A stretch of DNA of 29,477 bases from a virus. Position 1 is the stretch's first letter. Every line of letters begins with the position of its first letter. Shown here piece after piece: positions 12,977 to 27,221 of the stretch. A model generated the notes under the pieces. That model was not told the origin of the DNA and did no database searches. It saw only the letters and a program-made list of their open reading frames with translations. The position numbers were made by a program, and so were the translations under genes. The stretch lies in IMG/VR virus record IMGVR_UViG_3300027833_000172, positions 1 through 29,477 of that record; one strand, 5' to 3'.

Positions 12977-13222
12977 TTAAAATAAAGTTCCTGTGGTTCT
13001 TTTAATAATGTTACGATCCATTGCTTCGACTTCTAGCTTAAGCTTTAATGGACCCTTGACAAGTTTTGCCATATCTTCAGGATCGATCTGGTTTCTTTCG
13101 CATATTTCAATAATTGATTCTGTGTAAGTCATTCCATCCTGTGTTACAAGCTTTTCAACCTGTATGCGTAGTTCTTCTTTTGTTATTGATGGTTTTATCA
13201 CCACTGCTTGTCGTTTACTCAT
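12977..13222 (-). CDS. 33: Probable late-transcription coactivator gp33-like
   Basis: 81 residues. The central pattern MTYTESIIEICERNQIDPED followed by MAKLVKGPLKLKLEVEAMD resembles gp33-type coactivators, which have a helix with ...YCE-N-IE...AKL...LK-KLE-EA-.... gp33 bridges RNA polymerase and the sliding clamp gp45 on late promoters; the many TATAAATA boxes in this window imply such a factor. The C-terminus (NIIKRTTGTLF) would be the clamp- or polymerase-contact end, although the typical acidic-hydrophobic clamp peptide is not clear. Start overlaps the previous stop by four bases. Assignment is moderate. Confidence 0.6.
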   Translation of the reverse strand: MSKRQAVVIKPSITKEELRIQVEKLVTQDGMTYTESIIEICERNQIDPEDMAKLVKGPLKLKLEVEAMDRNIIKRTTGTLF

Positions 13223-14376
13223 AGCGCTCGTACTAAAATGGTATCTTGGTTGATCCTACCATTTGCGGATTTACGCTTGGTCTTAAGCTCGTTGAGCGAT
13301 TTCTCAATTTGCTTTTCAGTTTTTGAAGCGATGATTGGAAGATAGTCTTCTGGCTTACGCAGTGTAAGCGAGAAGGATGCATCTTCGTCAAAGTCTTTAA
13401 TGGAGGTACCACTTACGGTAAAGCCATCTCGAGTTCGTGCTTTAAAGACTGTAAGCTTACGGTATTTAGTGTTAAAGGCAAAGAACATATTGGCACCAAT
13501 GATTCGAGTAGGATCACAGGACTGCATAGAATGATCTTTCGATTCAGATAGGTATTTCATCCTTTGAACTTGCTTATCCGCTGCCTTAGGCTTCTTGGTC
13601 CGTGGCTTACGAGCAGATGCTTTACTTGTCTTATAGAGTACTAACTCATTAAGCATAGCATCACACGCTTTAATACGGTTACGTAGTGCGGGCTTGCTCA
13701 AATAGGAGTACCCTTCGACCATGTCAGGACAAGTCTTTTCGAAAGCTTCGTTGTACTCATTACGCTGTTTAGTCAACCATTCCTTTACTTCACGTGTAGC
13801 TGAGACTGGAATGTTTTCACCTCGCATGACACTAGCCAATGGGAACTTAGTAACCTTTGGTTCGAAGGTGCACCAGTCGTCAAGCATGCTTTCAAGCTCG
13901 CACAGAATAGTTTCTCTCACCTTCTTTTTCATGATTTCATGAACGTTAGGCTTGGGCTTTCCATCTTCAGGCTTCACTGCTTTTGCCTCTTTTGCGTCTT
14001 CAGCAGCTTTAACGAGTAGTACAATTCCACTCATAGCGCGCTCTGCATAATCGTAGCTGAGGTCCTTAGGCATACCCATATTGAACATGCGGCACATCTT
14101 TCCTGTGCTAATGACGTTTCCAGCGGTCTTCGGCACACGCTTAATAAGAGCAATGTCTTTCGTATCAAACTGATTACGTACCATGTACTCTGAGATGATT
14201 GGAAAGTAGTCATCGCGATCAAGATAGTAGTTATAGAAGTTAAGAGCAGAATTAAACCTACGGTCAAAGTCTTCTTGAGTAGTTATGTTTTTCCACTCAG
14301 GCTCTTCGCCTGTGTATTTGCTATCCATAGCAACTACGTTACCGTTCTTTAAGAATTTTCTATGTTTAATTTTCAT
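13219..14376 (-). CDS. Conserved T4-like phage protein, 385 residues, unknown function
   Basis: Two parts. Residues 1-235 are helical and charged (NFYNYYLDRDDYFPIISEYM, then a YDYAERAMSGIVLLVKAAED helix and MLDDWCTFEPKVTKFPLASV). After a basic linker (ASARKPRTKKPKAADKQVQR, about 253-272) follows a compact strand-rich domain: DPTRIIGANMFFAFNTKYRK, LTVFKARTRDGFTVSGTSIK, DFDEDASFSLTLRKPEDYLP. I recall this C-terminal pattern (NTKYRKL... G..I.. TLRKPE) in marine T4-like phages, where no function is known. Its promoter puts the ATG seven bases after TATAAT, predicting a leaderless early mRNA that also carries the gp33-like gene and three small genes. Confidence 0.8.
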   Translation of the reverse strand: MKIKHRKFLKNGNVVAMDSKYTGEEPEWKNITTQEDFDRRFNSALNFYNYYLDRDDYFPIISEYMVRNQFDTKDIALIKRVPKTAGNVISTGKMCRMFNMGMPKDLSYDYAERAMSGIVLLVKAAEDAKEAKAVKPEDGKPKPNVHEIMKKKVRETILCELESMLDDWCTFEPKVTKFPLASVMRGENIPVSATREVKEWLTKQRNEYNEAFEKTCPDMVEGYSYLSKPALRNRIKACDAMLNELVLYKTSKASARKPRTKKPKAADKQVQRMKYLSESKDHSMQSCDPTRIIGANMFFAFNTKYRKLTVFKARTRDGFTVSGTSIKDFDEDASFSLTLRKPEDYLPIIASKTEKQIEKSLNELKTKRKSANGRINQDTILVRAL

Positions 14377-14874: not shown

Positions 14875-15183
14875 CTATCGGCGGCTTAGCTCCGGCCCAC
14901 AGCTTACAATATTATCCTTATTAGCTTCTAGCCAAGCATCTTGTTGAATGGTCTTGGCACGTTCTCCGGCCAATTCTAGCATTTTAATAAATGCCTCATC
15001 ATGTGAGGAATAAAGCTTATCTGTGATGATGCGAGCAAACGATTGTGCACCCATTGCCATATTGGCATTCACGATGGTTTCAATTGCATCGCATACATCA
15101 CCGATTGACACGGTCTTTGTTTTTGCCACAGTCTGGTTTGCTGTTAATCCTTGTACTCCGTTAATTTTTGTCGTAATAGCCAT
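14875..15183 (-). CDS. Protein of unknown function, 102 residues
   Basis: Begins MAITTKINGVQGLTANQTVA and continues with helices (IGDVCDAIETIVNANMAMGA, DEAFIKMLELAGERAKTIQQ). No signal or membrane segment. The start of the sequence (MAITTKINGV...) resembles small virion or scaffolding proteins, but no family is recognised. First gene after the early-type promoter at 15229-15257, with a 45-base leader rich in A and C (CCAACCAACTAACACAAACA). Confidence 0.65.
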   Translation of the reverse strand: MAITTKINGVQGLTANQTVAKTKTVSIGDVCDAIETIVNANMAMGAQSFARIITDKLYSSHDEAFIKMLELAGERAKTIQQDAWLEANKDNIVSCGPELSRR

Positions 15184-15348: not shown

Positions 15349-15837
15349 CTACAGCCTTCTTCTCTTTATTGCTAACAGAGATAAGGCTAAAAGGCCTGAA
15401 AGCAGACCAACAGTCTCAGGCTCAGGTATAATATAGGCTGAAACGACCCGTAGTCGAACTTTCCCATGTTTCATGTATTTGATGACGCCAACCGAGTACT
15501 CAGTCATATTGTCGTGGCGTGCTGTAGCTACAATGGTCAAGATGTCGCTTTCAGCGATACAGTAGATATCAGCAAATGGAAGTTCACTTGGATATATGAC
15601 CTTATTGTCAAATGACCAGTCTTTGTTTGACACGCTGGAAAATTCCACGCGGTCACCAAACCCCTGTATTTTAAAGAAGTCACCATTGTTAAACCGCACT
15701 TTCGCCGACCCGCTTCGAAAAGCTACATCAGGCTGATTGTCCAGCACTCCAGGATGGACGTTAAATGCCGTTGAGGCGTGTGATAGTGCGGATGACGCGA
15801 GGAGCGCCAAGACGCTGATTATGTTTTTTGTTCTCAT
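15349..15837 (-). CDS. Secreted protein with a PEP-CTERM sorting signal
   Basis: 162 residues. N-terminal signal peptide: KNIISVLALLASSALSHA (4-21), likely cut after SHA. C-terminal PEP-CTERM tripartite signal: PEP at 138-140 (IIPEPETVG), a short membrane helix VGLLSGLLALSLLAI (143-157) and a basic end KRRRL. In bacteria such proteins are cut and sorted by the exosortase EpsH/XrtA and tied to extracellular polysaccharide. The middle (23-135) is strand-rich with no named domain. A TATAAATA box 40 bases upstream suggests late expression. The gene lies downstream of the endolysin. A PEP-CTERM protein in a phage is unexpected; it may come from the host and implies that the host has an exosortase. 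Confidence 0.85.
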   Translation of the reverse strand: MRTKNIISVLALLASSALSHASTAFNVHPGVLDNQPDVAFRSGSAKVRFNNGDFFKIQGFGDRVEFSSVSNKDWSFDNKVIYPSELPFADIYCIAESDILTIVATARHDNMTEYSVGVIKYMKHGKVRLRVVSAYIIPEPETVGLLSGLLALSLLAIKRRRL

Positions 15838-15877: not shown

Positions 15878-15885
15878 TATTTATA
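15878..15885 (-). promoter_or_regulatory. Late promoter for the PEP-CTERM gene
   Basis: TATAAATA on the minus strand, in the sequence TTATAAATAAATATC. It leaves a leader of about 35 bases before the ATG, so this gene is not leaderless. Confidence 0.6.
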
Positions 15886-16415: not shown

Positions 16416-16520
16416 CTAATCGGTGAGTGAGAAAATTAGTTTTAAGGCCATTAAAATACCCAAGATAGCCAAGAAGATGTATACGTTAAATACGTTAATG
16501 AAGGTAGAGATTGGTTTCAT
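16416..16520 (-). CDS. Tiny single-span membrane peptide, 34 residues (tandem copy 1)
   Basis: MKPISTFINVFNVYIFLAIL followed by GILMALKLIFSLTD. A membrane helix covers about residues 8-28. It is a near-copy of the 28-residue gene just upstream; it differs by a short internal duplication (NVFNVY for NVY), an inserted GI-type segment, and one change (S for F at position 5). The same leader, GGACACACACATT, precedes both this gene's downstream neighbour (endolysin) and this gene itself. A holin, pinholin or antiholin role is inference from size, membrane helix and neighbours. Confidence 0.7.
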   Translation of the reverse strand: MKPISTFINVFNVYIFLAILGILMALKLIFSLTD

Positions 16521-16532
16521 AATGTGTGTGTC

Positions 16533-16619
16533 CTAATCGGTGAGTGAGAAAATTAGTTTTAAGGCCATTAAAATAGCCAAGAAGATGTATACGTTAATGA
16601 AGGTAAAGATTGGTTTCAT
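16533..16619 (-). CDS. Tiny single-span membrane peptide, 28 residues (tandem copy 2)
   Basis: MKPIFTFINVYIFLAILMAL followed by KLIFSLTD. One membrane helix with a basic N-terminal end and acidic C-terminus. The last 13 residues are identical to copy 1. The ATG lies inside the end of the preceding 70-residue gene (26-base overlap). Leader: CCCGCACACACT. At 28 residues it is among the smallest phage membrane proteins one would propose. Duplication is certain from the DNA; function is inferred. Confidence 0.65.
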   Translation of the reverse strand: MKPIFTFINVYIFLAILMALKLIFSLTD

Positions 16620-25718: not shown

Positions 25719-26441
25719 CTAAATGTTATGTAGATTGTCAAACAAGCTGTTTACCTTTTTGCGAGAATTCTCAACATAGTTTGAATCAGATAAGAAGTCG
25801 TGCACCAAGGCAGCATTCTTATGAGTATTAGATGGAATAACCCGCTTTATTCTTTGCCCTAAAATCATGCTAATGATCAGCGCGTGATAGCTTATAGACG
25901 AAACACTCTTATGTTGAGCGAGAGTGTTCATAAAATATTCAGCGGTATTCTTAGTGTTTAACTCAGATCCATGACGAACTTTAACGAGATCTTTTGTTGG
26001 CTTAAATTTAAGTTGAGCTAATCGCTTATTCGTGAATATAATGTCTGGAATAGTATCCACGGGTTTACCGAATTGTCTTGCACACGCTGCTGCACTAAAA
26101 GACTCTCGGCATGATATGAATTTAAAGTTTTTAAGTTGGCCTTTAGTTTTATTGTCTTGGAAAACCGTGTTAATGAGTATTGATGGCCATTTAGCACCAA
26201 CTGATAAGATGTCATTGCGACGGTCGTGATGGAATGATCCTTCTCCGTTCACAATCACCAAATCTGCTTTATCGAGAACAGACGCAACGTGCTTTTCATC
26301 ACGCATCATATCCTTTTTCACGCTTCCAACAAATTCGCAATCAACTCTTTTCAGTTGATCTTTAAAGGTTTCCATCACCAGCTCGCAGCCAAAGTGTTTA
26401 TAGTTCTGTGTAAAACAGTCGTTGTAAATTGCTACTTTCAT
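25719..26441 (-). CDS. Polysaccharide pyruvyltransferase-like protein
   Basis: 240 residues. The family pattern is visible: an opening VAIYNDCFTQNYKHFGCELV (3-22), ADLVIVNGEGSFHHDRRNDI (59-78) where GEGS is the conserved loop, a helix with Arg-rich RESFSAAACARQFG (about 112-125), DIIFTN (about 132), and the late SSISYHALIISMILGQ (about 180-195) typical of the CsaB/PssM-like fold. Such enzymes add pyruvate ketals to surface sugars or polymers. The gene overlaps the next upstream one by ATGA and both probably act together. A GT-B glycosyltransferase is a related alternative. Substrate is unknown. Confidence 0.7.
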   Translation of the reverse strand: MKVAIYNDCFTQNYKHFGCELVMETFKDQLKRVDCEFVGSVKKDMMRDEKHVASVLDKADLVIVNGEGSFHHDRRNDILSVGAKWPSILINTVFQDNKTKGQLKNFKFISCRESFSAAACARQFGKPVDTIPDIIFTNKRLAQLKFKPTKDLVKVRHGSELNTKNTAEYFMNTLAQHKSVSSISYHALIISMILGQRIKRVIPSNTHKNAALVHDFLSDSNYVENSRKKVNSLFDNLHNI

Positions 26442-26944
26442 ATTATATTGTAATTACGTTCGTGGATAAAATAACTTATTGTGAATTTTCTTTCTCTAAC
26501 ATAGTCATGCGGCTCATCAGCTGGTGTTCTTTTTTGATCATAGTATGTAGGTGTTTGCTTAAAGTCAAATCCAATAAGAGTTACGCTTTTAATGCCTAAT
26601 GACCTTTGACTCAAAAACGCATTTGCAATACATCCGCTGCTTGGCCGGTATCCGACGTGTGGTTTAAGTTTACTTATCACCCTCATCGGTATAGTGTAAT
26701 CAGCAGTCAGTGATGGCCTTCCTTCAGAAGAAACGTGAATAGATACTGCGTTACCAATATCGACTTTAGTATTCCAAGCATCGGCTATACTCAAAAATGC
26801 AACATCTGGCTTGAACCTTTCTACACCTCTATTGAATGCGCATGTAAGTGTGTTTTCGCCGATTAAAGATTCTAACTTTTTTTCGTTAAGACTTAAAGCG
26901 TTGCCTATGACCACTACATCTTTATCTGCGAAAATCTCTTTCAT
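26438..26944 (-). CDS. Sialyltransferase/DUF115-like sugar transferase-like protein
   Basis: 168 residues from ATG 26944, two bases after the upstream stop; an open extension to 27052 overlaps that gene and is not used. Pattern: DVVVIGNALSLNEKKL (9-24), a nucleotide-binding-like start, TCAFNRGVERFKPDVAFLSI (34-53), PSSGCIANAFLSQRSLGIKS (101-120) and VTLIGFDFKQTPTYYD (121-136). GNxLS...FNRG and PSSG...LG...IGFDF are typical of GT29/CST-II-like and DUF115/MAF proteins that handle nonulosonic acids. It is short, so it may be a minimal domain. Coupled to the pyruvyltransferase-like gene. Confidence 0.6.
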   Translation of the reverse strand: MKEIFADKDVVVIGNALSLNEKKLESLIGENTLTCAFNRGVERFKPDVAFLSIADAWNTKVDIGNAVSIHVSSEGRPSLTADYTIPMRVISKLKPHVGYRPSSGCIANAFLSQRSLGIKSVTLIGFDFKQTPTYYDQKRTPADEPHDYVRERKFTISYFIHERNYNII

Positions 26945-26945
26945 G

Positions 26946-27221
26946 CTACTCCCCTTCGTCCACTTCGTATTTTGAACACTTATCGAGCCTCTCTGAGAAT
27001 GTATTCTCAAATCCGTCTTTATCATTATCCCAACCATTGAAACAATAATCAAATAGCCAATCGTTAATTTCGACTTTAGTCATCCCTTCGATCCATTTCT
27101 CTTTCACAACTTTAGCCATAAGCTTATCCAAATACTCCTCTTGAATCTTACCCAATTCCTGAATAAAGTCTCCAGTCTTAAATGCTTCGTCGTCTAGTTC
27201 TGCTTTGATTTTTACTTTCAT
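26946..27221 (-). CDS. Small acidic protein, paralogue of the 12571-12822 gene
   Basis: 91 residues: KIKAELDDEAFKTGDFIQEL (4-23), EKWIEGMTKVEINDWLFDYC then FNGWDNDKDGFENTFSERLD. Shares the AELDD-AF-GDFIQ and DWLFDY-FNG blocks with the 83-residue protein 14 kb away. Its C-terminal end adds CSKYEVDEGE. The shared block, both times next to small unknown genes, suggests a functional duplicate. No family recognised. Start overlaps the upstream 39-residue gene by ATGA. Confidence 0.75.
   Translation of the reverse strand: MKVKIKAELDDEAFKTGDFIQELGKIQEEYLDKLMAKVVKEKWIEGMTKVEINDWLFDYCFNGWDNDKDGFENTFSERLDKCSKYEVDEGE

Follow-up and report, generated by a model that had tools for sequence, protein, structure and literature searches.

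Described systems and the present locus

Exosortase substrates are known as surface and floc proteins of bacteria. In the PEP-CTERM/exosortase system (EpsH; TIGR02595, PF09721), as modelled by Haft et al. (2006, PMC1569441), the signal peptide carries the substrate through the inner membrane, where the C-terminal tail keeps it with the PEP motif exposed to the periplasm, and EpsH/exosortase then cleaves the protein and passes it on. The protein described here resembles such substrates in its signal peptide, PEP motif, following helix and basic cluster at the extreme C-terminus, in the lack of any other membrane segment, and in an ectodomain without known relatives. It differs in being encoded by a phage, behind a phage late promoter, so that the phage brings the substrate with no exosortase on the stretch analysed, and in that one of its homologues has PEI in place of PEP.

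Two groups of phages also invite comparison. The T4-like marine phages Melnitz and the pelagimyophages carry the curli genes csgF/csgG, whose function is debated, sibling capture and lysis control having both been put forward (PMC9004378). These are related T4-like marine phages with cell-surface or matrix genes near gp32, and therefore offer a precedent for surface-related genes in that position; the proteins and the pathway are nevertheless different, Melnitz supplying a pore and the present phage, as predicted, a protein for the sorting enzyme of its host to act on. Phage P8625 of Verrucomicrobia (PMC4642752) shares with our phage a marine Puniceicoccales host, in our case the likely one, but is a siphovirus without predicted signal peptides, and in this one cultured Puniceicoccales phage examined a PEP-CTERM protein is absent. 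Searches of 5.39 million open-access papers yielded no description of PEP-CTERM proteins encoded by phages. The PEP-CTERM signal itself is known; what appears to be new is its carriage by phages and its attachment to several different ectodomains.

The gene and its predicted product

The window, by which we mean the whole 29,477-base stretch that was analysed, is a viral contig encoding gp32 and tail tube, head closure and baseplate tube cap proteins, and by this gene set and its late promoters the phage is T4-like. The term "lytic", used of it in a preliminary description of this DNA, would be deduced from the T4-like genes of a fragment of 29 kb and is best read as presumptive. The features that concern us are these:

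15349–15837, minus strand: gene for the PEP-CTERM protein, 162 aa (TIGR02595 and homologues)
15775–15837, minus strand: Sec signal peptide, residues 1–21, predicted cut after S-H-A, without lipobox (read from the sequence; hydrophobic peak at residues 5–22, model helix at 2–19)
15427–15774, minus strand: ectodomain, residues 22–137 (~115 aa), predicted to be beta-rich (low-confidence model)
15352–15426, minus strand: PEP-CTERM tail, residues 138–162, with PEP, transmembrane helix and KRRRL (TIGR02595)
15878–15885, minus strand: T4-type late promoter TATAAATA, 41 nt upstream of the ATG of the PEP-CTERM gene, conserved in the relative L003
15945–16403, minus strand: endolysin (cell wall hydrolase) with an N-terminal signal/anchor segment (PF07486, E=1e-12)
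14875–15183, minus strand: 102-aa gene of unknown function, which adjoins the PEP-CTERM gene in L003 too
13219–14376, minus strand: phrog_11903 gene, a neighbourhood marker, whose homologue in contig L163 has another PEP-CTERM gene directly upstream

The open reading frame lies at the coordinates first reported for it, and to these must be added that it is on the minus strand, which had not been stated. Its product begins with MRTKNIISVLALLASSALSHA, followed after the predicted cut by STAF, and closes with the C-terminal stretch YIIPEPETVGLLSGLLALSLLAIKRRRL, the C-terminus itself being IIPEPETVGLLSGLLALSLLAIKRRRL. Within the tail, P138-E139-P140 precedes a hydrophobic run at about 141–157 and KRRR at 158–161 of the 162 residues; Kyte-Doolittle values rise above 1.5 in two places, the signal peptide and the tail, with no membrane segment between them. 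This arrangement had been proposed from inspection as a complete sorting signal, and the search of PEP-CTERM models suggested there as a check bears it out: TIGR02595, an NCBI model that we take as defining PEP-CTERM proteins, matches residues 137–161 at 17.3 bits, the curated cut-off being 16, and when the entire record was searched in six frames the gene scored 20.8 bits. Because Pfam places the protein in no family at E up to 1, the PEP-CTERM motif PF07589 included, this pass is real but narrow; PF07589 is a short model, with which two other phage tails reach just 12–15 bits against its cut-off of 20.7. PHROGs gave no match for the protein. Two AlphaFold2 models are of low confidence (mean pLDDT 63.7 and 55.3) and match nothing in the PDB below E=0.001 by Foldseek, and we therefore claim no fold. 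Weak matches to a cadmium efflux regulator by PDB sequence profile (E 0.015) were judged to be chance.

The window contains 11 copies of the promoter octamer where 3.07 would be expected, and none of 100 shuffles reached 11. The preliminary description had placed the gene under a late promoter and next to the endolysin, and both statements hold, the endolysin gene adjoining on the upstream side. Just upstream of the endolysin gene in turn lie two tandem-duplicated tiny membrane ORFs (16416–16520 and 16533–16619, minus; 34 and 28 aa), which share MKPI.TFIN..YIFLAIL..MALKLIFSLTD within 68-nt repeats that are 99% identical, and which are possibly holin-like. Elsewhere in the window, a polysaccharide pyruvyl transferase-like protein (25719–26441, minus; PF04230, 3.3e-8) is encoded next to an overlapping gene of unknown function that comes after it (26438–27052, minus), a pair that may represent surface or glycan genes.

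Homologues and selective constraint

A search for homologues in metagenomic phages had been proposed, and two were found; isolated phages and plasmids yielded none, nor did a scan of 84,980 prokaryote genomes for conserved patterns. In L003, a close T4-like relative, the homologue is 73% identical and occupies the same genomic position. In L001 it is 62% identical. This T7-like contig encodes a gp2.5-like SSB and an endonuclease besides an integrase and a T7-type RNA polymerase, and the homologue stands directly after the integrase gene, within the early stretch that separates the latter from the RNA polymerase gene. The layout of signal peptide, ectodomain and tail is kept across the T4-like and T7-like proteins, and the ectodomains retain the invariant blocks GDFFK.QGFGDRVE, KDWSFDNKVIY, ADIY and SDILTI.ATARHDN. 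With a dN/dS of 0.096 (about 0.10) between the window and L003, the ectodomain is under purifying selection. This value, together with a homologue of the same layout in an unrelated type of phage, confirms that the gene is real and more than a product of chance. Change has been quicker in the tail than in the ectodomain, and the signal peptide also varies more; signal peptides and tails of such proteins usually do. Synonymous divergence from L003 is pS 0.54 for the PEP-CTERM gene and 0.27 for the adjacent endolysin gene, a twofold difference which suggests that the former has been exchanged by recombination.

These data bear directly on whether the protein might serve in lysis, as a bridge resembling a unimolecular spanin, with a secreted domain and a C-terminal membrane anchor. 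Such a role would suit both its topology (signal, periplasmic domain, C-terminal anchor) and the place of its gene, downstream of and adjoining the endolysin and with a late promoter of its own. A lipobox cysteine is, however, absent after the signal sequence in all three homologues, the T7-like homologue lies outside any lysis cassette, and the PEP-CTERM genes of other phages are located away from the endolysin. We reject this very improbable interpretation.

Similar tails in other marine phages

Further PEP-CTERM proteins were sought in contigs related by endolysin or gp32, and a strict tail pattern, PEP[ST][ST]YAL..G, was scanned over 2.9 million IMG/VR contigs. Similar tails were thereby found on about five further kinds of protein, in relatives of the window phage and in unrelated marine phages. 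One family (a; L010, L039, L041, L043, L045) comprises proteins of 229–246 aa with an NGxFETGDLTGW ectodomain and tails bearing PEP, PES or PEQ. A second (b; L102/L158 and L160) has about 220 aa, the tail VPEPSTYALILGWLLFLYVATKRR or one like it, and a beta-barrel gene next to it. The protein of L163 (c), encoded directly upstream of the phrog_11903 homologue, combines a distinct ectodomain with the tail AIPEPNSFLLMPICVLLLSILRGRRN. A 114-aa protein (d) is nearly identical in L214, L215, L218, L220 and L228, large viral contigs of 30–73 kb in which no terminase match was found, and a 95-aa protein (e) occurs in L227. The strict pattern was present in 18 contigs, not all independent since several are near copies; in each of the 18 it fell at the C-terminus of an ORF and was accompanied by a hydrophobic stretch, with a basic tail wherever the sequence continues. 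L216 among these carries lambda-type tail genes, and other strict-pattern contigs carry terminase or head genes.

In several of these contigs an outer-membrane beta-barrel is encoded directly after the PEP-CTERM gene (L158:337–1488, minus; L160:1582–2745, plus; L216; L223–L226). The two barrels of the second family are 49% identical to each other, one of them matching PF10082 weakly, and no host homologue of the phage barrel was found in 44 genomes of the family Puniceicoccaceae.

PEP-CTERM tails are thus a recurrent feature of several types of phage, a breadth that the preliminary description had underestimated. The phage proteins that bear them have unrelated ectodomains, so that the tail itself is the shared part. 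Whether that part acts as a sorting signal is the point on which the strongest rival explanation turns. The protein could instead remain anchored in the inner membrane as a periplasmic protein of type I topology, its tail a mere anchor whose likeness to an exosortase signal is a legacy of an ancestral PEP-CTERM gene of the host, with a periplasmic role such as superinfection immunity or lysis timing. PEP is expected to be nearly invariant in the TIGR02595 family. It is present in the window protein and in L001, but L003 has PEI and its protein lacks a TIGR02595 match, and it is because of this substitution, and of PEQ and PES in other phage tails where helix and basic residues are nonetheless kept, that the anchor alone must be taken seriously. 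The weaker constraint on the tail than on the ectodomain, and the adjoining endolysin gene, are in keeping with it. Against this, PEP is intact in the window protein, in the more remote homologue from the T7-like phage and in the majority of the other phage tails; PEP-[ST]-[ST]-[YF]-AL recurs in unrelated proteins, which a pure anchor would not need; and PES is found in a host protein (L202) as well. We consider a simple anchor unlikely, although still a substantial competitor to sorting by exosortase.

A tail shared by several unrelated ectodomains that have nothing else in common could also indicate a decoy, occupying or jamming the host exosortase and so blocking the late sorting of host surface proteins, and the PEI, PEQ and PES variants could in that event bind uncut. 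The strong conservation of the ectodomain would be unexpected if the tail alone acted, and we regard a decoy as very improbable.

The probable host

Several indirect but convergent observations make a marine member of the Opitutales, from the family Puniceicoccaceae or close to it, the most likely host. A query joining the phage-tail consensus to part of the L010-type ectodomain produced five matches among 84,980 bacterial and archaeal genomes, all in MAGs of marine Puniceicoccaceae or Opitutaceae BACL24. An exosortase is encoded in all three candidate host genomes behind these matches, along with numerous PEP-CTERM proteins with tails such as VPEPSTYALLAGFAAFIFVAIRRR. The preliminary description had restricted the host to a Gram-negative bacterium possessing an exosortase, and had named a lineage without the enzyme as evidence to the contrary; the lineage proposed here is Gram-negative and encodes it. 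PEP-CTERM proteins of marine Puniceicoccaceae/Opitutales (L164–L206) have tails nearly identical in style to those of the phages (VPEPSTYALLAGFxAFxFVAIRRR), but their ectodomains are unrelated to that of the window protein: the window family finds matches in 112 of 373 Opitutales genomes, essentially to the tail (best 27–28 bits), with no whole-ectodomain homologue in the set.

Signals of a different kind point the same way. Shine-Dalgarno-like leaders are near shuffle level in the window (3/26), in its relatives (7/77) and in host loci (5/115). In Melnitz, which is T4-like and has a proteobacterial host, the figure is 24/37 (Fisher p 2.5e-5 for the comparison with the window). One Opitutales MAG includes a T4-like contig whose gp32 shows 62–65% identity, the best phage in the collection reaching 56%, and Opitutales MAGs contain T7-type RNA polymerases 34–39% identical to that of L001, one of them adjoining an integrase, both links being limited by the foreign contigs that MAG bins can contain. 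The scarcity of Shine-Dalgarno leaders and the gp32 relative thus support an Opitutales host. A search for an att site of L001 in Puniceicoccaceae gave a best match of 22 nt, which is not convincing. In one Opitutales MAG, an integrase followed by an apparent translated tRNA gene (L239:350–1614) lies upstream of a T7-type RNA polymerase, and the locus is a probable T7-like prophage.

The abundance of PEP-CTERM proteins in such hosts might suggest that the window gene is mere cargo, recently captured from a host without a selected function, or that a host contig was misfiled as viral. But the gene is flanked by T4-like genes, stands behind a T4-type late promoter, is common to two types of phage at 62% identity under purifying selection, and lacks a whole-ectodomain homologue in the 373 Opitutales genomes or in the scan of prokaryote genome contigs. 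Largely refuted by the conservation data, this reading is rejected as having almost no likelihood.

A proposed role in the infected cell

Every sequence element that the Haft model requires is, as far as prediction goes, present in the window protein, and we think it probable that the protein is exported and sorted by the exosortase system of the host. Transcription would begin late in infection from TATAAATA, as the promoter sequence and its conservation support. The signal peptide would then direct Sec export, and the C-terminal helix would retain the protein in the inner membrane, its basic cluster on the cytosolic side. No exosortase gene was found on the window, and sorting would therefore depend wholly on the host, whose enzyme would recognize and cleave at PEP and whose pathway would carry the ectodomain on to either the outer membrane or the exopolysaccharide layer, if the scheme of Haft et al. 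(PMC1569441) applies. At the surface, the ectodomain might alter or mask the cell late in infection, with the result that fewer progeny or rival phages would adsorb, or that release would be easier. This last role is our favoured guess, and a doubtful one. The preliminary description had suggested that the protein might coat the infected cell, block superinfection or change aggregation, roles that are likewise conjectural.

Since the phage families differ in their ectodomains and agree in the tail, delivery to the cell envelope would be the feature that unites them. A broader possibility, which we hold tentatively and somewhat short of probable, is that several unrelated lineages of marine phage infecting Opitutales (T4-like, T7-like with an integrase, and one with lambda-like tail genes) have independently put an exosortase signal on different proteins, and routinely hijack the sorting route to remodel the surface of the infected cell, in some cases alongside a phage-encoded outer-membrane barrel.

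Phages that carry substrates of their own would show viral exploitation of the exosortase sorting route. The tail would also help to recognize, from sequence, phages that infect marine Verrucomicrobia, a poorly cultured group, and such small phage substrates, with their PEP as against PEI, PEQ or PES, could help to define the residues that an exosortase needs.
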